DNA from: Aromatoleum toluclasticum ATCC 700605
GTDB taxonomy: Bacteria > Pseudomonadota > Gammaproteobacteria > Burkholderiales > Rhodocyclaceae
DNA length: 64,000 nucleotides
Direction of reading: 5' to 3'
Assembly (NCBI RefSeq): GCF_000378245.1
Contig: NZ_KB899496.1
Coordinates: 1-64,000, forward strand
Shown: positions 9,612 through 24,675 of the stretch, piece by piece
Numbering within the stretch: position 1 is the stretch's first letter
How the letters are laid out: every line of letters begins with the position of its first letter
Program-made: the position numbers and the translations under genes
Notes under the pieces: model-generated
Database searches by the model: none
Seen by the model: the letters and a program-made list of their open reading frames with translations, nothing else
Told to the model about the DNA's origin: nothing

Positions 9612-9680
9612 ATGCCTCGCGTTCCCCGACGCTGCGACCGCAGCTCAGAACACATCAACAAAGCAATAAAGGAGTTTGCC

Positions 9681-10928
9681 ATGTCCCCAGAGAGCCATTC
9701 CAAGCACCGTCGGCTGTGGACCGCCGGCCTGGCCGTCACAACCCTGACCGCCATTTCCGCTGCCGTCCTCGGCCTGCGCCCGGCGCCGGTCGAAGCGAAC
9801 CCGAGTGCGGGTGCCCCGTCCGCGACGCCGGTGTCCGTCGCGACCGTCGAGCAGCGCGAAGTCGCGACCTGGGACGAGTTCTCCGGTCGCCTCGAAGCGG
9901 TCGAGCGCGTCGACATCCGCTCGCGCGTCGCCGGCACCGTGCAGGCGGTACATTTCCGCGAAGGCGGGCTCGTGAAGGCGGGGGACTTGCTGGTCACGAT
10001 CGATCCTGCGCCCTATGCGGCCGAGGTGGATCGCGCCGTGGCCCAGGTCGCGGCCGCGCAGTCGCGCGTGGCCTTCACGACGAGCGAACACGAACGCGCG
10101 CAGCGCCTATGGGAGCAGCGCGCGATCGCCGAGCGCGAATTCGAGGAGCGCGCCAACGCTCGTCGCGCGGCAGACGCCGAGCTGCGCGCAGCGCAGGCCG
10201 CGCTGCAATCGGCACGCCTGAACCTCGGTTACACGCAGGTGAGGGCGCCCGTATCCGGCCGCGTCGGCAAGCTCGAAATCACCGTCGGCAATCTCGTCGC
10301 CGCCGGACCAGGGGCGCCGGTGCTGACGACGCTGGTGTCCGTCAGCCCGATCTACGCGAGCTTCGACGCCAACGAGCAAATCGTGGCGCGCGCACTGCAG
10401 ACGCTGCGCGATGCCCACGGCAAGGCGGCGCGGATCGAAAGCATCCCGGTGCAGATGGCGACGACGATGAGCCAGGAAAGGATCTACGCGGGCCACCTCC
10501 AACTCGTCGATAACCAGGTCGACGCCCGCAGCGGGACGGTGCGCGTGCGCGCCGTGTTCGACAACGCCGACGAGAGCCTGATGGCGGGGCAGTTCGCGAA
10601 GCTGCGGATGGGGCGCCCGAAGGCCGAGCCCGCCGTGCTCATCGACGAGCGCGCGATCGGCACCGACCAGAGCCGCAAGTTCGTGCTGGTCGTCGACGCC
10701 GACAACAAGACCGCATACCGCGAAGTCACGCTGGGTGGCACGGCCGACGGGCTGCGCATCGTCAGTGCCGGGCTGCAGCCGGGCGAGCGCATCGTCGTGA
10801 ATGGCTTGCAGCGCGTGCGGCCGGGTTCGCTCGTCGCGCCGCAGGCGGTGGCGATGGACGGCCGCATGCAGGTCCGCAGCGACCGTGCCGTCCGCGCCGC
10901 GGATGCAGCCGGCTTGCCGCAATCCTGA
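9681..10928 (+). CDS. RND efflux periplasmic adaptor subunit (AcrA/MexE family)
   Basis: Links the inner-membrane pump to the outer-membrane channel. 415 residues; ATG 9681 has AAAGGAG just upstream. An N-terminal hydrophobic segment (about 13-30) acts as signal or anchor; no lipobox cysteine is seen. Then a biotinyl-lipoyl half motif (VDIRSRVAGTVQAVHFREG), a coiled-coil hairpin rich in Ala/Arg/Glu (about 115-190), the second lipoyl half (YTQVRAPVSGRVGKLEITVG) and beta-barrel domains ending near residue 400. The pump gene follows 25 bases later. By locus order it is closest to CeoA/BpeE/MexE; substrates are probably small hydrophobic or aromatic compounds, which the sequence cannot prove. Confidence 0.93.
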   Translation: MSPESHSKHRRLWTAGLAVTTLTAISAAVLGLRPAPVEANPSAGAPSATPVSVATVEQREVATWDEFSGRLEAVERVDIRSRVAGTVQAVHFREGGLVKAGDLLVTIDPAPYAAEVDRAVAQVAAAQSRVAFTTSEHERAQRLWEQRAIAEREFEERANARRAADAELRAAQAALQSARLNLGYTQVRAPVSGRVGKLEITVGNLVAAGPGAPVLTTLVSVSPIYASFDANEQIVARALQTLRDAHGKAARIESIPVQMATTMSQERIYAGHLQLVDNQVDARSGTVRVRAVFDNADESLMAGQFAKLRMGRPKAEPAVLIDERAIGTDQSRKFVLVVDADNKTAYREVTLGGTADGLRIVSAGLQPGERIVVNGLQRVRPGSLVAPQAVAMDGRMQVRSDRAVRAADAAGLPQS

Positions 10929-10953
10929 TTCGCCCGTAATCGAGAGCACCATC

Positions 10954-13900
10954 ATGAATCTGTCCCGCTTTTTCATCGATCGCCCGATCTTCGCCGGCGT
11001 GCTGTCGCTGCTGATGTTCGTCGCCGGCCTGCTCGCGCTGCGCGTGCTGCCGGTGTCGGAATACCCCGAAGTCGTGCCGCCGTCGATCGTTGTGCGCGCA
11101 CAGTATCCCGGCGCGAACCCCAAGGTGATCGCCGAGACGGTCGCGACCCCCCTCGAGGAGTCCATCAACGGCGTCGAAGGCATGCTCTACATGGGCAGCC
11201 AGGCGACCACCGACGGCCTGATGACGCTGACGGTCACCTTCCGCCTCGGCACCGATCCCGACAAGGCGCAGCAGCTGGTGCAGAACCGCGTCGCGCAGGC
11301 CGAGCCGCGCCTGCCCGAGGAGGTGCGCCGGCTCGGCGTGACGACGGTCAAGAGCTCGCCCGACCTGACGATGGTCGTGCACCTGCTGTCGCCCAACGGC
11401 CGCTACGACATGACCTACCTGCGCAACTACGCGCTGCTCAACGTCAAGGACCGCCTCGCGCGCATCGACGGCGTCGGCCAGGTGCAGCTGTTCGGCTCCG
11501 GTGACTACTCGATGCGCATCTGGCTGGATCCGCAGAAGGTCGCCGCGCGCGGCTTGTCGGCGGGCGACGTGGTGCGCGCGATCCGCGAGCAGAACGTGCA
11601 GGCCGCCGCCGGTGTCGTCGGCGCGTCGCCGGGCCTGCCGGGCGTCGATCTGCAACTCTCGGTGAACGCCCGCGGCCGCCTGCAGAGCGAGGAGGAGTTC
11701 GGCGACATCATCGTGCGCACCGGTGCGGACGGCGCCGTGACGCGTCTGCGCGATCTCGGCCGCATCGAGCTCGGCGCCTCAGACTACGCGCTGCGCTCGC
11801 TGCTCGACAACAAGGATGCGGTCGCGATTCCGATCTTCCAGGCGCCAGGTTCGAACGCGATCCAGATTTCCGACCATGTACGCGAGACGATGCAGCAGTT
11901 GAAGCAGCACATGCCCGAGGGCGTCGACTACGAGATCGTGTATGACCCGACGCAGTTCGTGCGCGCATCGATCGAAGCGGTCGTGAAGACCCTGCTCGAA
12001 GCGGTCGCGCTCGTGGTGCTGGTGGTGATCCTCTTTCTGCAGACCTGGCGCGCGTCGATCATTCCGCTGCTCGCGGTGCCGGTGTCGATCGTCGGCACCT
12101 TTGCGGTGATGCACCTCTTCGGCTTCTCGATCAACGCGCTCTCCCTCTTCGGGCTGGTGCTCGCGATCGGCATCGTCGTCGATGACGCGATCGTCGTCGT
12201 CGAAAACGTCGAGCGCAACATCGAGGCGGGGCTCTCACCGCGCGAGGCAACGTACCGGGCGATGCGCGAAGTCTCCGGCCCGATCATCGCGATCGCGCTG
12301 GTGCTGATCGCCGTGTTCGTCCCGCTTGCCTTCATCACCGGCCTCTCCGGGCAGTTCTACAAGCAGTTCGCGCTGACGATCGCGATGTCGACGGTGATCT
12401 CGGCGATCAACTCGCTGACGCTGTCGCCGGCGCTGTCCGCGCTGCTGCTGAAGGGCCACGACGCGCCCAAGGATGCGCTGACGCGCGGAATGGACAAGGT
12501 CTTCGGCCGCTTCTTCGCCGCCTTCAACCGGACCTTCCGCCGCGGCGCGGAAGCCTACGGCGGCGGGGTGCGCGGCGCGATCGGGCGCAAGGCGGTGATG
12601 ATGGCCGTCTATCTCGCACTCATCGGCCTGACGGCGGGGCTCTTCAAGGCGGTGCCCGGCGGCTTCGTGCCCGCGCAGGACAAGCAGTACCTGATCGGCT
12701 TCGCGCAGCTGCCGGACGGTGCCACGCTCGACCGCACGGAGGCGGTGATCCGCCGCATGGGCGAGATCGCGTTGCAGCAGCCCGGCGTCGAGCACTCCGT
12801 CGCCTTTCCCGGCCTGTCGATCAACGGCTTCACGAACAGCTCGAACTCGGGGATCGTGTTCACGCCGCTGAAACCGTTCGACGAGCGCAAGGGGGCGGAA
12901 CTCAGCGCCGGGGCGATCGCGATGGAACTGAACAAGAAGTTCGCCGGCATCGAGGACGCCTTCATCGTGATGTTCCCGCCGCCGCCGGTGCAGGGGCTCG
13001 GGACGACGGGGGGCTTCAAGCTACAGTTGGAGGACCGCGCATCGCTCGGCTACGAGGCGCTCGACGCGGCAACCAAGGCCTTCCTCGCGAAGGCGTCGAA
13101 AGCGCCGGAACTTGCGGGGCTGTTCTCCAGCTACCAGGTGAACGTGCCGCAGCTCTTCGCCGACATCGACCGCACCCGCGCGCGCCAGCTCGGCATCCCG
13201 GTCACCGACGTGTTCGACACGATGCAGATCTACCTCGGTAGCCTGTACGTGAACGACTTCAATCGCTTCGGCCGGACCTACTCGGTGCGCGTGCAGGCCG
13301 ACGCGCCTTTCCGCGCCCGCGCCGAGGACGTCGGTCTGCTGAAGGTGCGCGCGCCGGGCGGGGAGATGGTGCCGCTGTCGTCGCTGATGAACATCCAGAC
13401 GAGCTTCGGGCCCGAACGCGCGATGCGCTACAACGGCTTCCTCTCCGCCGACATCAGCGGCGCACCCGCGCCCGGCTACTCGTCGGGACAGGCGAAGGCG
13501 GCGGTCGAACGCATCGCGGCCGAAACGCTGCCGCCGGGCATCGGCTTCGAATGGACCGAACTGACCTACCAGGAGATCCTCGCCGGCAACTCGGCGGCAT
13601 GGGTCTTCCCGCTCGCGATCCTGCTGGTCTTCCTCGTGCTCGCGGCCCAGTACGAAAGCCTGACGCTGCCGCTCGCGATCATCCTCATCGTGCCGATGGG
13701 GATCCTCGCCGCGATGACCGGCGTGTGGCTCTCGGGCGGCGACAACAACGTCTTCACGCAGATCGGCCTGATCGTGCTGGTCGGGCTGTCGGCGAAGAAC
13801 GCGATCCTGATCGTCGAGTTCGCTCGCGAACTGGAATTTGCCGGACGCACGCCGGTACAGGCGGCGATCGAGGCGAGCCGTCTGCGGCTGCGCCCGATCC

Positions 13901-14196
13901 TGATGACCTCGCTCGCCTTCGTGATGGGCGTGCTGCCGCTGGTGCTGTCGACCGGCGCCGGCGCCGAGATGCGCAGCGCAATGGGGGTGGCGGTGTTCGC
14001 CGGGATGATCGGCGTGACGGCCTTCGGCCTCTTCCTGACGCCGGTGTTCTACGTGCTGCTGCGCCGCCTCGCCGGCAACCGCGCGCTGAAGCTGCACGGC
14101 GAGATCCCGCACCTCGAAGCCTTCGCCGCTTCGCCCGTTACCGGCGGCGCCGCAACCGCGACGGGGCTGGCTGCACCGCGTGCGCATCACGAATAA
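10954..14196 (+). CDS. RND multidrug efflux pump, HAE1 family (AcrB/MexF-like)
   Basis: Proton-driven drug transporter of the inner membrane, 1080 residues, normal length. ATG 10954 gives the classic N-terminus MNLSRFFIDRPIFAGVLSLL. Twelve membrane segments with two large periplasmic loops are apparent. The proton-relay aspartate pair in TM4 is present (GIVVDDAIVVVENVERN), as is the lysine of TM10 (VGLSAKNAILIVEFAREL). It lies between the adaptor and channel genes with gaps of 25 and 10 bases. The sequence resembles MexF/BpeF/CeoB more than AcrB in the first periplasmic loop. No defect seen. Confidence 0.95.
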   Translation: MNLSRFFIDRPIFAGVLSLLMFVAGLLALRVLPVSEYPEVVPPSIVVRAQYPGANPKVIAETVATPLEESINGVEGMLYMGSQATTDGLMTLTVTFRLGTDPDKAQQLVQNRVAQAEPRLPEEVRRLGVTTVKSSPDLTMVVHLLSPNGRYDMTYLRNYALLNVKDRLARIDGVGQVQLFGSGDYSMRIWLDPQKVAARGLSAGDVVRAIREQNVQAAAGVVGASPGLPGVDLQLSVNARGRLQSEEEFGDIIVRTGADGAVTRLRDLGRIELGASDYALRSLLDNKDAVAIPIFQAPGSNAIQISDHVRETMQQLKQHMPEGVDYEIVYDPTQFVRASIEAVVKTLLEAVALVVLVVILFLQTWRASIIPLLAVPVSIVGTFAVMHLFGFSINALSLFGLVLAIGIVVDDAIVVVENVERNIEAGLSPREATYRAMREVSGPIIAIALVLIAVFVPLAFITGLSGQFYKQFALTIAMSTVISAINSLTLSPALSALLLKGHDAPKDALTRGMDKVFGRFFAAFNRTFRRGAEAYGGGVRGAIGRKAVMMAVYLALIGLTAGLFKAVPGGFVPAQDKQYLIGFAQLPDGATLDRTEAVIRRMGEIALQQPGVEHSVAFPGLSINGFTNSSNSGIVFTPLKPFDERKGAELSAGAIAMELNKKFAGIEDAFIVMFPPPPVQGLGTTGGFKLQLEDRASLGYEALDAATKAFLAKASKAPELAGLFSSYQVNVPQLFADIDRTRARQLGIPVTDVFDTMQIYLGSLYVNDFNRFGRTYSVRVQADAPFRARAEDVGLLKVRAPGGEMVPLSSLMNIQTSFGPERAMRYNGFLSADISGAPAPGYSSGQAKAAVERIAAETLPPGIGFEWTELTYQEILAGNSAAWVFPLAILLVFLVLAAQYESLTLPLAIILIVPMGILAAMTGVWLSGGDNNVFTQIGLIVLVGLSAKNAILIVEFARELEFAGRTPVQAAIEASRLRLRPILMTSLAFVMGVLPLVLSTGAGAEMRSAMGVAVFAGMIGVTAFGLFLTPVFYVLLRRLAGNRALKLHGEIPHLEAFAASPVTGGAATATGLAAPRAHHE

Positions 14197-14206
14197 GGAG
14201 TTGAAC

Positions 14207-15673
14207 ATGACACTGCTGACTCATCCGCTGCGCACCGCGCTCGCACCGCTCGTTGCCGCCCTCGTGCTGGCCGGCTGCGCCACCGCGCCCGCGATCGATC
14301 CCGCCGCCTTGCCGTCGGCGCCCGCGGCCTTCAAGGAAGGCGACGGCCGCTGGACCCAGGCCTTGCCGACCCAGGTGCAGGCCGACGGCGCATGGTGGAA
14401 GACCTTCTCTGACCCGGTACTTGACGGGCTGGTCGAGCGCGCGCTGGAGCGCAACAACAGCATCCAGATCGCCGCCGCGCGGCTGGCGCAGTCCCGCGCG
14501 CTGCTGCAGGCGACCGATGCGCAGCGCGCCCCTCAGCTCGGCATCGGCGCCGACGCGACGCGGCAGGGCGGGGCGATCACGCCGGCCGGCGGCGGTGCCG
14601 GCAAGCTGCTGCGTGCCGGCGCGAACTTCTCGTGGGAGCTCGACCTCTTCGGCCGCCTCGCGCAGGCGAGCCAGGCCGCGTCGCTCGACGCCCGCAGCCG
14701 CGAAGCCCTGCTGCGCAACGCACGCCTCGTCGTGCAGGCGGACGTCGCGCGCAGCTATCTCGCGCTGCGGGCGCTCGACGCCGAACGCGCGCTGGTGCGC
14801 GAGACCATCGGCGCCTACCGCGACACGCTGGCGCTGACCGAACGGCGCTTCGAGGCCGGCGACATCGCCGAACTGGACGTCGCGCGCGTGCGCACCGAAC
14901 TGGCCGCAACCGAATCGGACGCACTCGCGCTCGACCGTCGGCGTGCCGAAATCGAACACGCCCTCGCGGTACTGGTCGGTGACGCAGCTTCGGACTTCCG
15001 GCTCGACTCCGGCAATTGGAACACGGCGCTGCCGGTGATCCCGGCCGGCGTCCCGAGTACGGTGCTCACGCGCCGGCCCGACGTCGACGCCGCGCGGCAA
15101 TCGATGCTCGCCGCCCAAGCACGCGTCGGCGTCGCGCAGGCGGCGTGGTTCCCGGACATCGCACTGACCGGTTCGGGGGGCTTCGCATCCACGGAGCTGG
15201 GCGACCTCTTCAAATGGTCGGCCCGCTCCTGGGGCGTCGGCGCCTTGCTGTCGCTGCCGATCTTCGACGGCGGGCGGCGCGACGCGGGCGTGCGCAGCGC
15301 CAATGCGGAACTGGACGCCGCGCTCGCCGGCTACCGCGAACAGGTGCTCGTTGCCTTCAAGGACGTAGAGGACCAGCTGTCCGCGCTGCGCCTCCTTGCC
15401 GAACAGGGCGAGGCGCAGGCGCGCGCGGTCACCTCGGCGAGCCGTGCGACAGTCCTGTCGGATGCGCGCTATCGCAATGGACTCGTCAGCCAGCTCGAAC
15501 TGCTCGACGCCCGACGCAGCGAACTGCGCAACCGGCGTGAGGCGCTGCAGGTGCGCTCGGCCCGGTACCAGGCGACGGTCGGGCTGGTTCGCGCCCTCGG
15601 CGGAGGGTGGGAGCCGGCCGATGATCCGGCCCTGGCCGGGCGCGATGCGGGGAACGGTAGCGCCGGAGGTTGA
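14207..15673 (+). CDS. outer-membrane efflux lipoprotein, OprM/NodT family
   Basis: Outer-membrane channel of the tripartite pump. 488 residues from ATG 14207 (AAGGAG ahead). A lipoprotein signal peptide ends in LVLAGC, so cysteine 24 would be lipidated. Two outer-membrane efflux repeats follow, with ANFSWELDLFGRLA in the first half and SWGVGALLSLPIFDGGRRD in the second. It closes the operon. Immediately after its stop lies the truncated end of a minus-strand gene remnant, suggesting this junction arose by a deletion or insertion. Confidence 0.94.
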   Translation: MTLLTHPLRTALAPLVAALVLAGCATAPAIDPAALPSAPAAFKEGDGRWTQALPTQVQADGAWWKTFSDPVLDGLVERALERNNSIQIAAARLAQSRALLQATDAQRAPQLGIGADATRQGGAITPAGGGAGKLLRAGANFSWELDLFGRLAQASQAASLDARSREALLRNARLVVQADVARSYLALRALDAERALVRETIGAYRDTLALTERRFEAGDIAELDVARVRTELAATESDALALDRRRAEIEHALAVLVGDAASDFRLDSGNWNTALPVIPAGVPSTVLTRRPDVDAARQSMLAAQARVGVAQAAWFPDIALTGSGGFASTELGDLFKWSARSWGVGALLSLPIFDGGRRDAGVRSANAELDAALAGYREQVLVAFKDVEDQLSALRLLAEQGEAQARAVTSASRATVLSDARYRNGLVSQLELLDARRSELRNRREALQVRSARYQATVGLVRALGGGWEPADDPALAGRDAGNGSAGG

Positions 15674-16129: not shown

Positions 16130-16951
16130 ATGACGCAAGGCTTGGCGCGTACGCATATCAACGGTTCCGGGCTGGTTCGTGCTCTCGGCGGGCTGACGTC
16201 CGCTGACGTGCCCGCGTCGAAGCAGTCCTTTGCCGACCGGCTCGGCCAATGGCTCGGTTTCGCGGATGCGCTCACGCTGTATTCCGCGCTCAATCCCGGG
16301 TCGTCAGGAGATGTGGTGCCTTCCCCCGTTACGACGTCGCGCGAGGCTGCGGCGCTGCGGCAGGCGATGGCGCGCGCGCGCGACGCACTGGCGGACTCTA
16401 TTATCAACGACGGCGTGTTCAAGCCCGGTCCGGCGCGGATCGAACTGCCGACGCCCGACCCGGCGGCGGCGGAGAAGGTGGCCGAGGACAAGGCGGCCGA
16501 CTTCGCGCCCTACCATCGCTACTATCTCGCCCACCAGCGCGACATGGCGGTGCGCATCGCCCCCTTGCGGGCGACGGTTCGCACGGCGCTGCAAGGACAG
16601 GCGAGCGCCCTCGCTCGGCTCGCCGCGCTCGATGCGGTGATGGACCAGGCGCTTGCGGCGCGCGAGCGCGACCTGCTGGCGACCGTGCCGGCACTGCTCG
16701 GCCGGCGCTTCGAGCAACGCTACGACGCGCATCGCGCGACGCTGGCCGAAACGCAGACGGCCGACGATGTGGCGAGGTGGATGCAGCCGGGCGGGTGGCT
16801 CGCGGATTTCTGCCGGGAGATGCAGTCCGTGCTCCTCGCGGAGCTCGATCTTCGGCTGCAGCCGATCGCAGGGCTCATTTCAGCCCTCGACGGAGAGGTT
16901 GCAAGTGAGGTCGCAAATGAGGCGGCCAATGAGGTGACAAGGAAGCAATGA
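16130..16951 (+). CDS. DUF3348 family protein, first gene of a putative motor operon
   Basis: 273-residue soluble, helix-rich protein matching my recollection of DUF3348: an N-terminal segment THINGSGLVRALGGL and FADRLGQWLGFADALTLYSAL, then acidic and alanine-rich helices, with PGGWLADFCREMQSVLLAELDLRLQP kept in pieces near the C-terminus. No signal peptide or membrane span. Function unknown. The stop overlaps the next gene in ATGA form, so it is translationally coupled to the DUF802 protein and may be its cytoplasmic partner or assembly factor. The ribosome site is poor; an upstream start is not available in frame with good codon use. Confidence 0.8.
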   Translation: MTQGLARTHINGSGLVRALGGLTSADVPASKQSFADRLGQWLGFADALTLYSALNPGSSGDVVPSPVTTSREAAALRQAMARARDALADSIINDGVFKPGPARIELPTPDPAAAEKVAEDKAADFAPYHRYYLAHQRDMAVRIAPLRATVRTALQGQASALARLAALDAVMDQALAARERDLLATVPALLGRRFEQRYDAHRATLAETQTADDVARWMQPGGWLADFCREMQSVLLAELDLRLQPIAGLISALDGEVASEVANEAANEVTRKQ

Positions 16952-19158
16952 ATAGAACCATCTGTATCGCGGCTTTCCTCGTAGGCCTGGTCGCCGTGTT
17001 CTGGGTCGGCGCCGGATATGTCGGCGCCAGTACGCTGGCGCTGGCGATGACGGCGATCATCGGCGCGGTCTATGTGACCGGCGCAGTCGAATTGGTGTGC
17101 TTTCACCGCACCACGACCGCCCTGGCGCGGGCGCTGGACGGGATTCCCGCGGATCTGTCGCACCCGGGCGAATGGCTGCGCCAGTTGCCGCAGTCCGTGC
17201 AGAACCCGGTACGCCTGCGTATAGAGGGCGAACGCGCGGGGCTGCCCGGCCCGGCCATGACGCCCTACCTTGTCGGCCTGCTGGTGCTGCTGGGCATGCT
17301 CGGCACCTTCCTCGGTATGGTCGTGACGCTCAATGGTGCGGTCATCGCACTGGAAAGCACGACCAACCTGGAGGCCATCCGCGCTTCGCTCGCGGCGCCG
17401 GTCCGCGGCCTGGGCGTCGCGTTCGGCACCTCCGTCGCCGGTGTGGCGGCCTCCGCGATGCTGGGCCTGGTTTCGGCCGTGTGCCGGCGCGAGCGGATGC
17501 TGGTCGCGCAACTGCTCGACACCCGCATCGGCACCTCGCTGCGCGGCTTCTCGCATGCTCATCAACGCGAAGAGACCTTCAAGGCGCTGCAATTGCAGGC
17601 GCGGGTGCTGCCCGAACTGGTCGACAAGCTGCAGGCGATGATGGAGCAGATGGAGCGGCAGGGCAGGGAGCTGAATGAGCGCCTCGTGTCCGGGCAGGAC
17701 GGATTCCACCGCGACGCGCGGGTGATGTACTCGGAGCTGGCCTCCTCGGTGGACAAGTCTCTCAGGACCAGCCTGACCGAAAGCGCCCGGCTCGCCGGCG
17801 AAACGATCCGACCCGTCGTGGCCGAGACGATGGCAGGCATCGCGCGCGAAACGAACGCGCTGCAGACGCACGTGGCCGACGCGGTGCGGACCCAGCTCGA
17901 CGGCATCTCCGGGCGTTTCGACGGCAGCGTCACCAGGGTCGCGGAAACCTGGAGCGCGGCGCTCGCGACGCACGAGCGCACCAGCGAAAACCTGAACCGG
18001 CAGATGCAGGATGCGCTGGGCGCCTTCGCCGAAACCTTCGAACGGCGCTCGGGTGCGCTGCTGAGTTCGGTCGAAGAGACGCACGCCGGCCTGCGCACCG
18101 ATCTCGCCGCCACGACGACGGCGCTGGTGCAGGGGACGGCCACGCTGCACACGCGGCTCGCCGACACCGTCGAACGGCAGCTCGACGGCGTGGCCGACCG
18201 TTTCGGCGGGACGGTCACCGCCGTCGCCGACACGTGGACGACGGCGCTCGCCAGCCACGAGCGCACGAGCGAACACCTCACCAGCGAACTCCGCAAGTCG
18301 CTCGAAGCCTTCGCCGACGCCTTTGCGCAACGCTCGGCGGCCTTGCTCGCTGCGGTCGGCGAAACCACGGCTGCGCAGCGGGCACAGCAGGCCGCGACGG
18401 ACGAGGCGCGCCTCGCCGCGCACACCCGGACGCTGGAGTCGATGGCGGCGTCGCTGCAGCAGGAATGGCACGAGGCCGGCGCACAGACCCTCGCGCGGCA
18501 GGAGCAGATCTGCAGGACCCTGGGCGAGACAGCGCACGAAATCGCCACCGCCGCGCAGGCACAGGCCAGCGGCACCATCGATGAAGTTGCACGCCTCATG
18601 CAGACCGCAGCCGAAGCGCCCCGCGCCGCGGCGGAAGTCATCGGCCAGCTGCGGCAGGAACTTTCCGCCAGCATCGCGCGCGACAACGGGCTGCTCGAGG
18701 AGCGCAGCCGCATCATGGAAACGCTGGGCACGCTGCTGTCCGCGATCAATCACGCATCGAGCGAGCAACGCTCGGCGATCGACGCGCTGGTGGCTTCCGC
18801 GACCGAACTGCTGGAGCGTGCCGGAACCTGCTTCTCCACCAGCATCGAGACGGAATCGGCGCGGATCGCCGGCGTCGCGGGCGAGATCACCGGCGGCGCC
18901 GCCGAGGTGGCCAGCCTGAGCGAGGCCTTCGGTCTCGCGGTGCAGCTCTTCAGCGAATCCAATGACAAGATGATGGCGACGCTTGCGCGCATCGAAGGGG
19001 CGCTCGACAAGTCCCTGACTCGCAGCGATGAGCAGCTCGCCTACTACGTCGCGCAGGCGCGCGAGATCATCGACCTGTCGATCATGTCGCAACGGCAGAT
19101 CGTCGAAGACCTGCAGCAGCTGCCCGGCAGGCAGGCATCGCTCGCCGGCGAGGTGTGA
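16948..19158 (+). CDS. DUF802 protein: MotA/TolQ/ZorA-like membrane protein with long coiled tail
   Basis: 736 residues. Four membrane segments are apparent at about 5-22, 28-50, 105-127 and 153-178; the third contains LGMLGTFLGMVVTL and the fourth GVAFGTSVAGVAASAMLGL, a pattern of the MotA/ExbB/TolQ superfamily. The remaining 550 residues are an Ala/Glu/Arg-rich helical tail with no output domain. The tail contains two related blocks of about 72 residues beginning at residues 311 and 406 (period 95), each with T-V-A-(E/D)-TW and A-L-A-(T/S)-HERTSE; these are DUF802 repeats. A MotB-like gene follows two bases later. I infer a proton-driven stator or motor with a long cytoplasmic lever, as in ZorA of the Zorya defence system. 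Confidence 0.82.
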   Translation: MNRTICIAAFLVGLVAVFWVGAGYVGASTLALAMTAIIGAVYVTGAVELVCFHRTTTALARALDGIPADLSHPGEWLRQLPQSVQNPVRLRIEGERAGLPGPAMTPYLVGLLVLLGMLGTFLGMVVTLNGAVIALESTTNLEAIRASLAAPVRGLGVAFGTSVAGVAASAMLGLVSAVCRRERMLVAQLLDTRIGTSLRGFSHAHQREETFKALQLQARVLPELVDKLQAMMEQMERQGRELNERLVSGQDGFHRDARVMYSELASSVDKSLRTSLTESARLAGETIRPVVAETMAGIARETNALQTHVADAVRTQLDGISGRFDGSVTRVAETWSAALATHERTSENLNRQMQDALGAFAETFERRSGALLSSVEETHAGLRTDLAATTTALVQGTATLHTRLADTVERQLDGVADRFGGTVTAVADTWTTALASHERTSEHLTSELRKSLEAFADAFAQRSAALLAAVGETTAAQRAQQAATDEARLAAHTRTLESMAASLQQEWHEAGAQTLARQEQICRTLGETAHEIATAAQAQASGTIDEVARLMQTAAEAPRAAAEVIGQLRQELSASIARDNGLLEERSRIMETLGTLLSAINHASSEQRSAIDALVASATELLERAGTCFSTSIETESARIAGVAGEITGGAAEVASLSEAFGLAVQLFSESNDKMMATLARIEGALDKSLTRSDEQLAYYVAQAREIIDLSIMSQRQIVEDLQQLPGRQASLAGEV

Positions 19159-19160
19159 CG

Positions 19161-19814
19161 ATGGACGAGTTCGACGGCGCCATCGAGCATTCGACCCCGG
19201 TCTGGGCGGTCTTCGGCGACCTCATGTCGGGCCTGCTGGGGGCCTTTGTGCTGATCCTGGTCGGCGTCCTCGGCGTGCAGCTGGACCTGGTGACCAGCCT
19301 GGAAGCGGAAGTGCAGAAGCGCCGCGTCGAGGAACAGCGCCGCGAGGCTCTGGAGAAGGCCCTCGCCGTGCCGCTTGCCGCGGGGCGCGTGACCCTCGAC
19401 GACGGCCGCATCGGCATCAGCGGCAGCGTGCTGTTCGCGCTCAATTCCGACGAGTTGCAGCCGGAAGGCCGCCAGCTGCTGAAGAGCCTCGCGCCGCCGC
19501 TGGCCGCCTTTCTTTCGGTCAGGGATGAGATGCTGATGGTGAGCGGTTTCACGGACGACCGGCCGGTGCGCGACACCAACCGGCAATTCGCCGACAACCT
19601 CGAACTGTCCGCGCAGCGGGCCCTGACCGTGACGCGCGCGTTGATCGACGAAGGCATCCCGTCCTCGTCCGTGTTCGCCGCCGCCTTCGGCCAGGAGCAG
19701 CCGGTGGCGTCCAATGCCGATGCGGAAGGGCGCTCGCGCAACCGGCGCGTCGAGATGGCCCCGGTTCCGCGGTCTGGCCAGGCGGGCAAGGCGGGCGCCG
19801 GGGGAAATGGCTGA
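19161..19814 (+). CDS. OmpA/MotB-like peptidoglycan-binding protein
   Basis: 217 residues from ATG 19161 (GTG 19155 would overlap the previous stop). A single N-terminal membrane segment has aspartate 20 at its start (PVWAVFGDLMSGLLGAFVL), the position of the proton-binding aspartate of MotB and ZorB. A short coiled linker follows, then an OmpA-C domain (about 75-205) with GFTDDRPV, NLELSAQRALTV and SRNRRVEM, which binds peptidoglycan. Together with the DUF802 protein this forms the pair expected of a MotA/MotB-type motor. It overlaps DUF2894 by 8 bases. No flagellar gene is nearby, so it is not an ordinary flagellar stator. Confidence 0.88.
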   Translation: MDEFDGAIEHSTPVWAVFGDLMSGLLGAFVLILVGVLGVQLDLVTSLEAEVQKRRVEEQRREALEKALAVPLAAGRVTLDDGRIGISGSVLFALNSDELQPEGRQLLKSLAPPLAAFLSVRDEMLMVSGFTDDRPVRDTNRQFADNLELSAQRALTVTRALIDEGIPSSSVFAAAFGQEQPVASNADAEGRSRNRRVEMAPVPRSGQAGKAGAGGNG

Positions 19815-20565
19815 CACGCGCCCGTCCGGAGCCGATCCCGGCGCGCTGATCGAAGCCCTGCGGGCGCAGAACGCTGAGCGCTTCGATCCGGTGGGCTTCC
19901 GCTTCATCGAGGCCCTGGCGCGCCGCGCCGCAAGCGGCGGCGACGCGGCCCGAGGTGTGCTGGAGCGCCGGCTGGCGACAGCCCTGTCCGACTACCGCGA
20001 GCGCCTCGACGCCGCCGGGCGCAAGGCCGGCGATGCGCTGGAACGGGCGATCACGCGCTTCCCCGAATCCGCCGACGCCCTGCGGCAATGCCGCGAATCC
20101 GGCGACCTCGCCGGCCTGCAGCGGCTGCTCGCACGGTTGGCGGGGCAGGGCGGCCACTCGCCCCTGAACGGGCTGCTCGCCCACATCGGCCGGCACACGC
20201 CCGCCGGGACCGCCGACCACTCTGTCGATGGCGGCCAAGGCGCCGGTGCCGCATTCTCCGCTCAGCCCGAACTCAAATCCCTGAGCTATTTCCGCAGCAC
20301 CTGGTCCCGCCTCAGTCTCGAGCGGCAGCTCGCCGACGCCTTCGCCCAGGCTCCGGAAAACGCCGGCCCGCTCAACTCGCATTTCCTCGTGCTGCAGGCG
20401 CTCGGGCAGATGCGCGACATCTCCCCCGAATACCTCAGGCAGTTCATGTCCTACGTCGATGCCCTGCTGTGGCTCGAGCAGGCCGACAACAGCCGCAATC
20501 CCCCACGCAACAACGCGGCGCGCAAGAACGCCGTCCGGGGCGAACGCGAGAAGAAGCGCAAATAA
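19807..20565 (+). CDS. DUF2894 family protein, last gene of the putative motor operon
   Basis: 252-residue soluble protein; ATG 19807 has GGGGAAA upstream and overlaps the OmpA-like gene by 8 bases. The C-terminal block with SYFRSTWSRLSLERQLADA and PENAGPLNSHFLVLQALGQM, then YLRQFMSYVDALLWLEQA, is what I recall as the DUF2894 core. The first half is helical with many Ala/Arg residues, and the last 25 residues are very basic (RKNAVRGEREKKRK), which could contact nucleic acid or membrane. Function unknown. It completes the four-gene order DUF3348-DUF802-OmpA-DUF2894. Confidence 0.82.
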   Translation: MADTRPSGADPGALIEALRAQNAERFDPVGFRFIEALARRAASGGDAARGVLERRLATALSDYRERLDAAGRKAGDALERAITRFPESADALRQCRESGDLAGLQRLLARLAGQGGHSPLNGLLAHIGRHTPAGTADHSVDGGQGAGAAFSAQPELKSLSYFRSTWSRLSLERQLADAFAQAPENAGPLNSHFLVLQALGQMRDISPEYLRQFMSYVDALLWLEQADNSRNPPRNNAARKNAVRGEREKKRK

Positions 20566-20670: not shown

Positions 20671-22011
20671 ATGCTGACGACCGCACAGGACGCCCCGTTG
20701 CCCGGCTTTGTCGAACTGCTGCTCGACGCGGTCTTTCTCGTCGACGCTGGGGGACGCATCGTCTACGTGAGTGCCGCGTGCGAACGCATGCTCGGTTACA
20801 CGCCGCAGGAGATGATCGGCCGGGAGCTGTTCGGGTTTCTCGTCCCCGAAGACCGGACGCGGACCGTCGCCGAGGCCGGCTCGGTCATCGCGGGACGTTC
20901 GCGGATCGGCTTCGAGAACCGCTACGTCCATAAGGACGGCCGTCACGTCCACATCATGTGGTCCGCGCGCTGGTCCGAAAGGGACCGGCTGCGCGTCGGC
21001 GTGGCACGCGACGTCACCGAACTCAAGAACGCCGAGGCCATTCAGCGCGCCACGTACGCCATTTCGGAAGCGGCGCACGAAGCCGCGGACCTCGACGTCC
21101 TGCTGCGCGAGATCCACCGCATCATCGCGAGCCTCGTGCCGGTGGCGGGTCTTGCGCTCGCGACCTGCGACAGACAGACCAGGAAGCTCAGCTTCTCCTA
21201 CCAGCGCGATCGCCACGGCAACCCGCTGACCCTGCACGAACCCGTCGCGTGCGAGTTCTGCGCCCAGGTCATCTGCGGCGGCCGTCCGATGCACCTGCGC
21301 GACGCTGCGCTGGCCGCGCTGTCGGGCGACGCTGCGGCGTCCTGCGACGACGGATCCTGGCTCGCCATGCCGCTGATCGCGCAGCAGGACACGATCGGCG
21401 CCCTGGTGCTGAAAAGCGATCCGGGCATCCAATACTCGGACAAGGACAAGGAGCTGCTGCATTTCGTCGCCGAGCAGATCGCGATCGCCATCGACCGCGC
21501 CCAGCTCAAGTCCGACCTGCTGCGCGCGGCCCGCTACGACGAGCTGACCGGACTGCCGAACCGGCGCCTCTTCAACGACCGCATCAAGTCGGTCGTGGCC
21601 AGATGCGTGCGCAATCAGTCCCGCCTGGCGGTGCTGTACATCGACCTCGACGATTTCAAACAGGTCAATGACTCGCTCGGACACGCCAACGGCGATCTGC
21701 TGCTGCAGGAGGTCGCCCGCCGGCTTCAGCGATGCGTGCGCGGGACGGACACCGTCGCCCGCCTGGGCGGCGACGAATTCGTCATTCTGCTCGAAAACGT
21801 GCAGACGCCCGACGATGCCCGCGCCGTCGCGGACAAGATCCGGGAGGCAGTGAGCCACCCGGTCGACCTCGACACCTGCGTCCTGCGCGCGCAGGCGAGC
21901 ATCGGCATCGCCGTCTATCCCGAACACGGGCAGGAAGTCGAGCGCATCCTGCAGCACGCCGACGCTGCAATGTACGCGGACAAACGGAACAAGCCCTTTC
22001 AGGCGATGTAG
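20671..22011 (+). CDS. PAS-GAF-GGDEF diguanylate cyclase
   Basis: 446 residues, soluble. An N-terminal PAS domain (about 10-120), a GAF domain (about 135-280) and a GGDEF domain (about 290-440). The active-site loop reads LGGDEF and an inhibitory I-site RGTD lies five residues upstream, so it should make cyclic di-GMP under product inhibition. YDELTGLPNRRLFNDR marks the start of the catalytic domain. A TAGTAA hexamer ends 9 bases before the ATG, so the message may have a very short leader. It is convergent with the hemerythrin gene. The signal sensed by PAS or GAF is unknown; the cysteines in CEFCAQVICGG in the GAF region might bind a cofactor. Confidence 0.93.
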   Translation: MLTTAQDAPLPGFVELLLDAVFLVDAGGRIVYVSAACERMLGYTPQEMIGRELFGFLVPEDRTRTVAEAGSVIAGRSRIGFENRYVHKDGRHVHIMWSARWSERDRLRVGVARDVTELKNAEAIQRATYAISEAAHEAADLDVLLREIHRIIASLVPVAGLALATCDRQTRKLSFSYQRDRHGNPLTLHEPVACEFCAQVICGGRPMHLRDAALAALSGDAAASCDDGSWLAMPLIAQQDTIGALVLKSDPGIQYSDKDKELLHFVAEQIAIAIDRAQLKSDLLRAARYDELTGLPNRRLFNDRIKSVVARCVRNQSRLAVLYIDLDDFKQVNDSLGHANGDLLLQEVARRLQRCVRGTDTVARLGGDEFVILLENVQTPDDARAVADKIREAVSHPVDLDTCVLRAQASIGIAVYPEHGQEVERILQHADAAMYADKRNKPFQAM

Positions 22012-22071
22012 GACTGAGTCGATCGACGCACCATATCGCCCGAAGCGGGACGGTGGCCTGTGCCGGCGACC

Positions 22072-22662
22072 TCACTCGAGGCAGCACGCGGCCTCCGCGG
22101 GTTCCTTGCACCCGCAGCCCGCCTGGTCCGCAATGCGCCGATGGATCGACTTGAAGCGATCCTGCACCGTGTCGCCGAAGATCGGATCCCACGCGAAATG
22201 GATCGCGGAGTCGACGAGGAACCATTCCTCGTCGCCCAGCGAAGCCGCCAGCCGCGGGAAGATCTCGCGTTCCTCGATCGCCATGTGATCCTTCAGGAAG
22301 TTCGTGTAGTCGAGCACGTCCGCCTGCAGCGTGGCACGCGGCATCATCGTCCCCGCCGCTGCGGCGCCCAGGTCCGCGGCCAGTTTCGCTCCGCTTTCGG
22401 CGATCGATCGGTGCTCGTCCGCGAGCGCTGCGATCAGGGTTTCGGCCTCGGGGTCGTGCGGAAGCAGGCGCCTGAACGCAACATCCTCGCGCGGATGGTG
22501 GTAGCGGTCCGGGTACTGCGTCATGTAATACACGATGTCCGCCATCAAGTCGTAATCCGGGTCTTCGCCACGGACCAGGGGGACGGTCAGTGCCTGGAGC
22601 AGATCGAGCAGTTTGCGGTAATTGGCGTGCTCGGTTTGCCATTTTTGTATCTGTGCGGTCAT
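22072..22662 (-). CDS. hemerythrin HHE-domain protein with cysteine-rich tail
   Basis: 196 residues. Two HHE halves supply likely di-iron ligands: H12, H55 or H56, E59, H84, H126 and E130. Such proteins bind oxygen or respond to NO and oxidants. An unusual addition is a C-terminal tail with five cysteines (AGCGCKEPAEAACCLE) that could bind metal or form disulfides. A GGAGAG motif precedes the ATG. The gene is divergent from the ferredoxin gene, and the perfect 20-bp dyad at 22766 lies between them, suggesting shared control. Confidence 0.9.
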   Translation of the reverse strand: MTAQIQKWQTEHANYRKLLDLLQALTVPLVRGEDPDYDLMADIVYYMTQYPDRYHHPREDVAFRRLLPHDPEAETLIAALADEHRSIAESGAKLAADLGAAAAGTMMPRATLQADVLDYTNFLKDHMAIEEREIFPRLAASLGDEEWFLVDSAIHFAWDPIFGDTVQDRFKSIHRRIADQAGCGCKEPAEAACCLE

Positions 22663-22765
22663 GACGCTCTCCAGCAGTCGTTGGGGCGCATCCGGCGTCC
22701 GGGTGGGTTCGACCCGGTGCCGGTGGGTGCGGTGTACCAGATGCTAGGGAGGCGGGCCGCAGCGG

Positions 22766-22785
22766 TGAATGACTTTTGTCATTCA
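22766..22785. promoter_or_regulatory. perfect 20-bp palindrome, putative Crp/Fnr-type operator
   Basis: TGAATGAC-TTTT-GTCATTCA is a perfect 8-bp inverted repeat with a 4-base spacer, the geometry of Fnr-type sites. The core ATGAC-N4-GTCAT differs from TTGAT-N4-ATCAA at the outer and inner bases. For the ferredoxin gene, TACATT at 22805-22810 would be the -10; a transcript start near 22817 places the centre at -41.5, the class II activator position. The Crp/Fnr-type gene at 23198 is the obvious candidate binder. Confidence 0.6.
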
Positions 22786-22852
22786 GCCCGCCGCGGCCCG
22801 GGCCTACATTGCACTCACACTCCAACCGAACTGCCAGAACGAGGGAAAAACC

Positions 22853-23176
22853 ATGACATACGTCGTCACCGAAGCCTGCATCAAGTGCAAACACACCGAT
22901 TGCGTCGATGTCTGCCCCGTCGACGCCTTTCGCGAAGGCCCGAATTTCCTCGTGATCGACCCGGGCGAATGCATCGACTGCACGCTGTGCGTCGCCGAAT
23001 GTCCCGTCGATGCGATCTATGCCGAGGACGACGTGCCGGTCGATCAACGGCACTTCATCGCGCTCAACGAAGAACTCGCAAAGGTCTGGATCCCGATCGT
23101 CGAGGTCAAGCCCGCGCCCCCCGATGCCGGGGTGTGGGCGAAAGTGAAGGACAAGCTCGGGCTGCTCGAACGCTGA
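22853..23176 (+). CDS. fdxA: seven-iron ferredoxin
   Basis: 107-residue FdxA-type ferredoxin carrying one [3Fe-4S] and one [4Fe-4S] cluster. By alignment to Azotobacter ferredoxin I, cysteines 9, 17 and 50 hold the three-iron cluster and 21, 40, 43 and 46 the four-iron cluster; cysteine 12 is extra. The C-terminal extension ([14 protein letters not shown] and after) is normal for this group. The start is ATG 22853, since the upstream frame crosses the palindromic operator. It converges on the Crp/Fnr gene with a 21-base gap. Electron partner unknown. Confidence 0.94.
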
Positions 23177-23197
23177 GGGCCCTGGCCGGAGCGCCGC

Positions 23198-23962
23198 TCA
23201 GGACTCGACGATCCGCTCCAGCATGTCCGGGCGCATGATCTCGATCCGGCCGGGCCGCGACGCGATCCAGCCGGCCTTCTGCCAGCGGCTGAGGATCCGG
23301 ATCACCGTTTCGACGCGTGCGCTCACGAGCTGGCTGAGTTCGTCGCGGGCGAGATGCACGTCGACGATCACGCTGCCCGTGGCCGTCGTTCGGCCGAATC
23401 GCCCGATCAGGTAACGCATCAGTGCCGCGAGGCGGCGTGGCACCGAGCCGGCGCTGACGATGTCGATCTTCGCGCGCAGCGCGACGGTGTGGCCCAGCAG
23501 CGCGTGATTCACCGCGCGTCCCACGGCGATGGAGTCGTCCAGGGCGTCCCGCAGTGCCTCCGCACGGATCGACAGCACCTCCACCGGTTCTCCGAGCGCG
23601 ATGGCGTCGGCCGGAAACACGCCGCCCTCCAGCGCGGCTGCAAGGCCGACGGCCTCGCCGCGCCGGAACAGGCCCACCAGGATGCCTTCCCCGGTCGGCG
23701 TCATCTGCCGGATCTGCAGCACGCCCGATTCGATGACCGCGAACCAGTTCGCGTGCTCCCCGGCGAACCACAGCGATTCACCCGGATCCAGACGGCGCGA
23801 GCGCGCACCTTGCGCAAGATGGCGAAGATCGGCCGGTCCCACTTGCGAAAACAGTTCGAGCTCGCCGAGTCGCCGCGCCAGCGCGTCGGCGTGCGCTCCT
23901 CCGTGCCCTTCGAATGGGGCGGGCGGAGGATGCAGCAGCGACGTTTGTGGAGCGTGTCCCAT
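23198..23962 (-). CDS. Crp/Fnr-family regulator without cysteines, at the end of the sdh operon
   Basis: 254 residues: a cyclic-nucleotide-binding-type effector domain (about 30-150), a long dimer helix and a winged HTH at the C-terminus (LARDELSQLVSARVETVIR). The recognition helix keeps the Glu and Arg that read the G and C of a TGA half-site. There is no cysteine anywhere, so it cannot carry the Fnr iron-sulfur cluster; a DNR/NnrR-like (haem, NO) or redox-independent mode is more likely. ATG 23962 lies 17 bases after the sdhB stop, so it is probably co-transcribed with sdhCDB. The palindrome at 22766 is a plausible target. Confidence 0.85.
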   Translation of the reverse strand: MGHAPQTSLLHPPPAPFEGHGGAHADALARRLGELELFSQVGPADLRHLAQGARSRRLDPGESLWFAGEHANWFAVIESGVLQIRQMTPTGEGILVGLFRRGEAVGLAAALEGGVFPADAIALGEPVEVLSIRAEALRDALDDSIAVGRAVNHALLGHTVALRAKIDIVSAGSVPRRLAALMRYLIGRFGRTTATGSVIVDVHLARDELSQLVSARVETVIRILSRWQKAGWIASRPGRIEIMRPDMLERIVES

Positions 23963-23979
23963 GACTTTCTCGTGCGCCT

Positions 23980-24675
23980 CTACGACGACTCGCGCACCAG
24001 CGCCTGCCGGATACGCTCGATCGCGTGCGAAGGGCTCAATCCCTTGGGGCAGACTTCGGTGCAGTTCATGATCGTGCGGCAGCGGAACAGGCGATAGACG
24101 TCGTCGAGATAGGCCAGTCGCTCCGCGGTGGCCGTGTCGCGCGAATCGGAGATGAAGCGGTAAGCCTGCAGCAGCCCGGCCGGCCCGATGAACTTGTCCG
24201 GATTCCACCAAAAGGACGGACAGAACGAGCTGCAGCACGCACACAGGATGCATTCGTACAGCCCGTTCAGCTTCTCGCGCTCGGCCGGCGACTGCAGACG
24301 CTCGCGTTCGGGAGGTGCCGTATCGTTGATCAGGTAGGGCTTGATCGAGTGGTAATGCGCAAAGAACTGCGTCATGTCGACGATCAGGTCGCGGATCACC
24401 GGGAAGCCCGGCAGCGGTCGCAGCACGACGGGTTCCTTCAGGCCGGCGAGGGGCGTCAGGCACGCCAGTCCATTGCGGCCGTTGATGTTCATCGCATCCG
24501 ACCCGCACACGCCTTCGCGGCAGGAACGGCGGAACGACAGGCTGTCGTCGATCGTCTTGAGCCGCATTAGCGCATCGAGCAGCTTCTTGTCGTCTGCCTC
24601 CGGGGCCAATTCGTAATCCTGCATGTGCGGTTTCAGATCGCTTTCCGGATTGAAGCGATAGATGCTCAATCGCAT
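23980..24675 (-). CDS. sdhB: succinate dehydrogenase iron-sulfur subunit
   Basis: 231 residues; carries electrons from flavin to quinone in complex II. The [2Fe-2S] cysteines lie in SCREGVCGSDAMNINGRNG and LAC; the [4Fe-4S] and [3Fe-4S] ligands are in CILCACCSSFCP and CRTIMNCTEVCPKG. AAGGAGG precedes the ATG. Upstream is sdhD at only 24 bases, with no room for sdhA, which normally sits between sdhD and sdhB. Downstream is a Crp/Fnr gene where sdhE and gltA are usual. The protein itself looks intact. Confidence 0.95.
   Translation of the reverse strand: MRLSIYRFNPESDLKPHMQDYELAPEADDKKLLDALMRLKTIDDSLSFRRSCREGVCGSDAMNINGRNGLACLTPLAGLKEPVVLRPLPGFPVIRDLIVDMTQFFAHYHSIKPYLINDTAPPERERLQSPAEREKLNGLYECILCACCSSFCPSFWWNPDKFIGPAGLLQAYRFISDSRDTATAERLAYLDDVYRLFRCRTIMNCTEVCPKGLSPSHAIERIRQALVRESS

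Follow-up and report, generated by a model that had tools for sequence, protein, structure and literature searches.

Zorya anti-phage systems are the closest described relatives of the operon considered here. In types I and II, the aspartate of ZorB, peptidoglycan binding and the tail of ZorA all matter for defense (PMC11890865). The introduction of that structural paper also mentions Zorya III, a name that Payne et al. gave in 2021 to the gene set zorAB, DUF3348 and DUF2894 (PMC8565338). A type III system from Stenotrophomonas (S. nitritireducens) reduced the number of phage plaques in E. coli (PMC8565338). Here and below, what we cite from published papers comes from excerpts of them. We analyzed a stretch of 64,000 nucleotides from Aromatoleum toluclasticum ATCC 700605 (contig NZ_KB899496.1, positions 1 to 64,000 of the forward strand; called the window below), in which four adjacent genes on the + strand span positions 16130 to 20565. 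A preliminary description of this DNA had read them as one unit encoding a motor of the MotA/MotB or ZorA/ZorB kind, possibly a new machine. We conclude that the operon very probably encodes a Zorya type III system for defense against phage, with all of its components (estimated probability, roughly 0.85).

Assignment of the operon to Zorya type III

All four operon proteins (4/4) matched dedicated type III models of PADLOC-DB. The first gene (16130..16951, +) encodes a DUF3348 protein of 273 amino acids that is predicted to be all-helical and that matched Pfam PF11828 (E value, 1e-82) and PADLOC model PDLC00658 (E value, 7.5e-82). It is followed by the gene for the DUF802 protein, the type III ZorA (16948..19158, +), which matched the ZorA3 model PDLC00650 with an E value of 7.3e-301. 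The OmpA protein, the type III ZorB, begins at a GTG at 19155 or an ATG at 19161 and ends at 19814 (+); it matched the ZorB3 model PDLC00651 (E value, 4e-113; 374 bits). The last gene (19807..20565, +) encodes a DUF2894 protein of 252 amino acids, also predicted to be all-helical, that matched Pfam PF11445 (E value, 1.5e-62) and PADLOC model PDLC00652 (E value, 9.9e-71, compared as the frame starting at ATG 19714). Open reading frame (ORF) coordinates and Pfam matches confirmed that the genes overlap or abut as an operon on the + strand: DUF3348 and ZorA overlap by 4 bases, ZorA and ZorB are separated by a 2-base gap (with ATG 19161) or overlap by 4 bases (with GTG 19155), and ZorB and DUF2894 overlap by 8 bases.

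The gene families are thus the same four as in Zorya type III, with no difference in gene content (PMC8565338). Because this gene set had already been named and tested against phage, the suggestion that it may be a new machine falls, while the other part of that description, a motor resembling ZorA/ZorB in which DUF3348 and DUF2894 replace ZorC, ZorD and ZorE, stands. The partner names are swapped between sources: DUF3348 is ZorF and DUF2894 is ZorG in the text of Payne et al. (PMC8565338), and they are ZorG3 and ZorF3, respectively, in PADLOC-DB 2.0.0.

The four-gene order was the same in 29 of 30 loci of a first set, the remaining locus (L056) being cut by a contig end. In a second set of 80 loci, which shares some genomes with the first, 67 were collinear as called, 5 more were collinear when over-long mechanical ORF starts were discounted, and 8 were cut by contig ends. 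Since the order is kept across both sets, gene order and adjacency are not due to chance. All four genes were likewise present in 30/30 Variovorax loci examined. No constant fifth gene was found among the flanking mechanically called ORFs within 5 kb of 105 loci; the largest flanking families occurred in 8 loci, and families at a fixed position were seen only within one genus.

Motor core, tail and helical partners

Hydropathy analysis identified four hydrophobic segments in ZorA (residues 5 to 23, 32 to 50, 108 to 126, and 157 to 175) and one in ZorB (residues 23 to 41), in agreement with the topology described earlier, and no membrane segments in the DUF3348 and DUF2894 proteins. ZorA thus has four membrane helices with a MotA/TolQ-like core, followed by a tail of about 520 residues, while ZorB has one membrane helix and a periplasmic peptidoglycan-binding domain of the OmpA/Pal type (Pfam OmpA; E value, 1.3e-17). 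This domain of ZorB was also the only part of the operon that gave PHROGs matches.

Both subunits could be matched to solved structures. ZorB matched 8qyd_F over residues 11 to 175 (E value, 7.4e-5) and 8vvn_B over residues 10 to 66 (E value, 3.1e-4), the membrane helix being included in each case; it also matched MotB- and Pal-like domains. The file of 8qyd_F is named just "Membrane protein," and we take this chain to be a Zorya ZorB. For ZorA, a search profile built from 16 ZorA N termini (A1) found one relevant solved chain, 8vvn_C (E value, 9.1e-6; profile positions 109 to 194), annotated as a "MotA/TolQ/ExbB proton channel domain-containing protein." With its 696 residues, 8vvn_C fits the Shewanella numbering in PMC11890865, and we therefore regard it as the published type I ZorA.

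Residues expected of an ion-conducting motor are invariant. The ZorB aspartate, presumably the ion carrier (codon 19218..19220, +), was kept in 129/129 aligned sequences; it is residue 22 counted from the GTG and residue 20 counted from ATG 19161, which is where the preliminary description had placed it. In ZorA, T120, T127, T161 and S162 were kept in 135/135 sequences, and T120, T161 and S162 (residues 120 to 162 are encoded at 17305..17433, +) align with T, T and S of 8vvn_C. Four known duplicates were excluded from these counts, which still contain further duplicates since the genome collections overlap (contigs of 356,219 and 421,318 bases, for example, occur in both). The reading of the operon as a motor is therefore well supported: its ZorA/ZorB core matches solved ZorAB chains and carries the invariant aspartate and threonine/serine residues, as in types I and II. 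It differs from these types in that the operon has no ZorC, ZorD or ZorE and in that the window ZorA reached only 36.3 bits (cutoff, 100) and 21.5 bits (cutoff, 190) on NCBIfam ZorA models.

The preliminary description needs one correction: Pfam DUF802 lies in the long cytoplasmic tail and not in the membrane part. It is a repeat of 53 residues, present in the window ZorA in two copies (residues 320 to 372 and 415 to 467) placed 95 residues apart. We surveyed 103 ZorA sequences, duplicates included, after setting aside 7 that were cut by contig ends. Their lengths ranged from 530 to 1193 residues, with one exception of 456 residues (L113, a contig of a metagenome-assembled genome), and the first DUF802 copy started near residue 321 in most of them; no copy was detected in 11/103. 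Within Aromatoleum, the genus of the window, two members have a ZorA of 641 residues with one copy, and the window and eight others have one of 736 residues with two copies, so that the two lengths differ by precisely one unit of 95 residues. Spacings of 95 (24 cases) and 55 residues (17 cases) between copies were the most common. The wide variation in ZorA length among type III relatives contrasts with types I and II, in which component sizes are reported to be well conserved (PMC11890865).

AlphaFold2 models built from 71-sequence alignments were all-helical both for the DUF3348 protein (mean predicted local distance difference test [pLDDT] score, 88; predicted template modeling [pTM] score, 0.84) and for the DUF2894 protein (mean pLDDT, 79.5; pTM, 0.50). 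In VIA-align comparisons, DUF3348 resembled dynamin/Mx stalks (Z score, 7.9; root mean square deviation [RMSD], 5.7 to 7.0 over 163 to 170 residues) and DUF2894 resembled Borrelia BB0323 (Z score, 8.7; RMSD, 9.8 over 131 residues). Both similarities fall within the range that is common for helical bundles, and we give them no weight; the best rows barely touched residues 1 to 63 of DUF3348 or the C-terminal portion of DUF2894. A profile search of the Protein Data Bank (PDB) found nothing convincing for either protein, the best matches being MYG1 exonuclease for DUF3348 (E value, 0.87) and PscE for DUF2894 (E value, 0.0036). The two proteins showed no recognizable kinship to each other in hhalign (probability, 0.6%).

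Distribution, inheritance and surroundings

To describe the distribution of the operon, we counted genomes with a DUF3348 match above its cutoff; the counts for genus, order and class include the genome of the window. DUF3348 was present in 11/17 genomes of Aromatoleum, where weak matches in four genomes (E values of 1.9e-4 to 9.5e-4, in frames of 147 amino acids) fell below the cutoff and were excluded. It occurred in 23/399 genomes of the order and 8/369 genomes of the class, counts that may be slight underestimates because just six or seven candidate places were scored per genome. In Variovorax, 98 of 101 genomes were positive (85/87 among those of good quality), with a single match in 95 of the 98 and two partial, nonrepeating matches in 3. 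The two control families run on the same genus were found in fewer genomes: type I restriction HsdR (PF04313) in 39/101 and Wadjet JetB (PF13835) in 14/101. A second genus, that of genome G330, was positive in 51/60 genomes. The ZorA N terminus was found in none of 50,697 phage records (E value of ≤1e-5) and in 27 of 72,556 plasmid records (E value of ≤1e-20), the smallest of which was 366 kb; 7 of the 27 were typed as mobilizable.

Payne et al. describe type III as patchy and horizontally moved at the genus level (PMC8565338). In our counts nearly every genome of at least one genus has it, and this near-fixation in Variovorax sits uneasily with their description. One Variovorax strain has been reported with Zorya type III among its PADLOC hits (PMC11953036), and we found no account of the near-fixation in the excerpts available from open-license literature.

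Among 30 Variovorax genomes, in one of which (G447) the gyrB match was partial, protein distances tracked those of gyrB, with Mantel correlations of 0.73 for ZorA, 0.72 for ZorB and 0.68 for DUF3348 (0/2000 permutations each). Simple descent is contradicted by the trees: just 8 of 27 ZorAB splits recurred in the gyrB tree (mean of 0.25 and maximum of 2 in 300 label shuffles), and of the 14 ZorAB splits with support, 7 conflicted with supported gyrB splits. Flanking genes were common to 14/14 pairs with a gyrB distance below 0.04 but to only 45/435 pairs overall. Together, the tracking distances, conflicting splits and few shared flanks indicate that the Variovorax system, which is almost always kept, descends vertically at shallow depth, with probable replacement or relocation at older depths, although gyrB taken by itself marks species only weakly.

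The preliminary description had proposed a check for association with a defense island, and none was found in the window, where 0/10 neighbors matched PADLOC at an E value of ≤1e-5. Directly upstream (9612-15673) lies a seemingly complete resistance-nodulation-division (RND) efflux set consisting of a fusion protein, a pump and an outer-membrane factor. Downstream (20671-24675), a GGDEF/PAS/GAF gene is followed by hemerythrin-like, ferredoxin-like, Crp-like and fumarate-reductase/succinate-dehydrogenase-like iron-sulfur genes. The names of the GGDEF gene and the outer-membrane factor come from Pfam, and the others come from reading the translations. Ten other Aromatoleum loci with the operon were compared, one of which (L044) stops at a contig end. 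The RND set was beside the operon in none of them, the GGDEF gene adjoined it in 8/10, and part of the block that follows was nearby in 6/10. The left flank is variable, with L047 and L049 carrying the window genes of about 2.9 to 6.6 kb there without the RND set, and genome G005 has the GGDEF gene and no operon. Among 10 neighbors taken from five other genomes (five of the 10 from G005), 1 matched PADLOC: an AbiEii toxin gene that adjoins the operon in genus member L042 (11862-12776). A phage-type integrase gene adjoins it in another, L043 (10478-11584). On two large plasmids, most of the annotated neighbors had metabolic or transport functions; one of these plasmids also carried an IS3 transposase and an integron integrase near the operon.

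Defense role, proposed mechanism and alternatives

Several points weigh against the assignment to an anti-phage system. The published phage test covers a single type III system, which came from a different genus and was plasmid-borne in E. coli (PMC8565338). Foldseek searches with the DUF3348 and DUF2894 models gave 0 matches each at an E value of ≤0.001, and Pfam, profile and fold searches recognized no effector enzyme, nuclease, helicase or catalytic domain in the operon, leaving type III without an obvious effector. The window holds no defense island, and presence in 98 of 101 Variovorax genomes is unusual for a defense system.

For the Zorya type III defense system that the operon very probably encodes, a mechanism can be proposed. 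By homology with types I and II, for which this arrangement is established, five ZorA and two ZorB subunits would form an ion-driven rotary motor in the inner membrane. When the envelope is disturbed by phage entry, the OmpA domain of ZorB may grip the peptidoglycan, and ion flow past the ZorB aspartate and the threonine/serine ring of ZorA would then turn the tail with its DUF802 repeats in the cytoplasm. The DUF3348 and DUF2894 proteins would be cytoplasmic partners of this tail in place of ZorC, ZorD and ZorE. Phage would probably be stopped by other means than in types I and II, either through coupling to a host factor or through ion leak, because no nuclease or helicase is recognizable in the operon; this step is the least certain of the proposal.

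A possible variant of the same defense reading, to which we give well under even odds, is that the motor acts mainly as a triggered ion leak that causes abortive infection by depolarization; DUF3348 and DUF2894 would then be its gatekeepers, and no effector would follow downstream. The proposal of Payne et al. that DUF3348 and DUF2894 regulate ZorAB is close to this idea (PMC8565338), and the lack of any recognized enzyme in the operon and of a constant fifth gene within 5 kb argues for it. The long tail measured in the relatives, however, would be superfluous for a simple leak; in addition, the tail is needed in types I and II, and ZorE is the effector in type II (PMC11890865).

We consider it unlikely, and less likely than the ion leak just described, that the operon is instead a lineage-fixed envelope or stress machine. 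Its principal function in Variovorax and comparable genera would then be a permanent one, either envelope upkeep or a general stress response, and phage protection on expression elsewhere would be a by-product. The frequencies in Variovorax and the second genus, set beside those of HsdR and JetB, favor such a machine, as do the absence from phage records, the rarity on plasmids and the tested neighbors, which are mostly metabolic or transport genes with no PADLOC match in the window. On the other hand, reduced plaquing and a patchy genus-level distribution have been reported (PMC8565338), and the low counts in the order and class genomes show that the system is dispensable overall. The conflicts between ZorAB and gyrB in Variovorax and the few shared flanks point to replacement or relocation, as in immune genes, and AbiEii, phage-type integrase, IS3 transposase and integron integrase genes lie close by in two genus members and on one plasmid.

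That the operon encodes a flagellar stator (MotAB/PomAB) or a Tol/Exb-type energizer is extremely improbable: it shares with MotA/MotB a four-helix A subunit and a one-helix B subunit with an aspartate and a peptidoglycan-binding domain, which in ZorB is close to that of MotB (3khn; E value, 7e-14), but ZorA has no Pfam MotA_ExbB match at an E value of ≤1, the MotB, MotD and MotS models among the ZorB matches listed reach at most 88.6 bits and stay below their cutoffs, the only one listed above its cutoff is the "hypothetical protein" model PRK09040.1 (373.3 bits versus 194; 374 bits for ZorB3), and the operon has a long DUF802-repeat tail, two extra helical partners (DUF3348 and DUF2894) and no flagellar gene.

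Returning to the operon as a Zorya type III anti-phage system, we tentatively suggest that type III may be an envelope motor built into whole genera and not an accessory defense island: lineages such as Variovorax would keep one copy and rarely lose it while its alleles and positions are swapped, and, unlike types I and II, it would act without a nuclease, by way of its two helical tail partners. Its near-fixation in some genera of soil bacteria and its absence from most of the order are the part of these results worth following.

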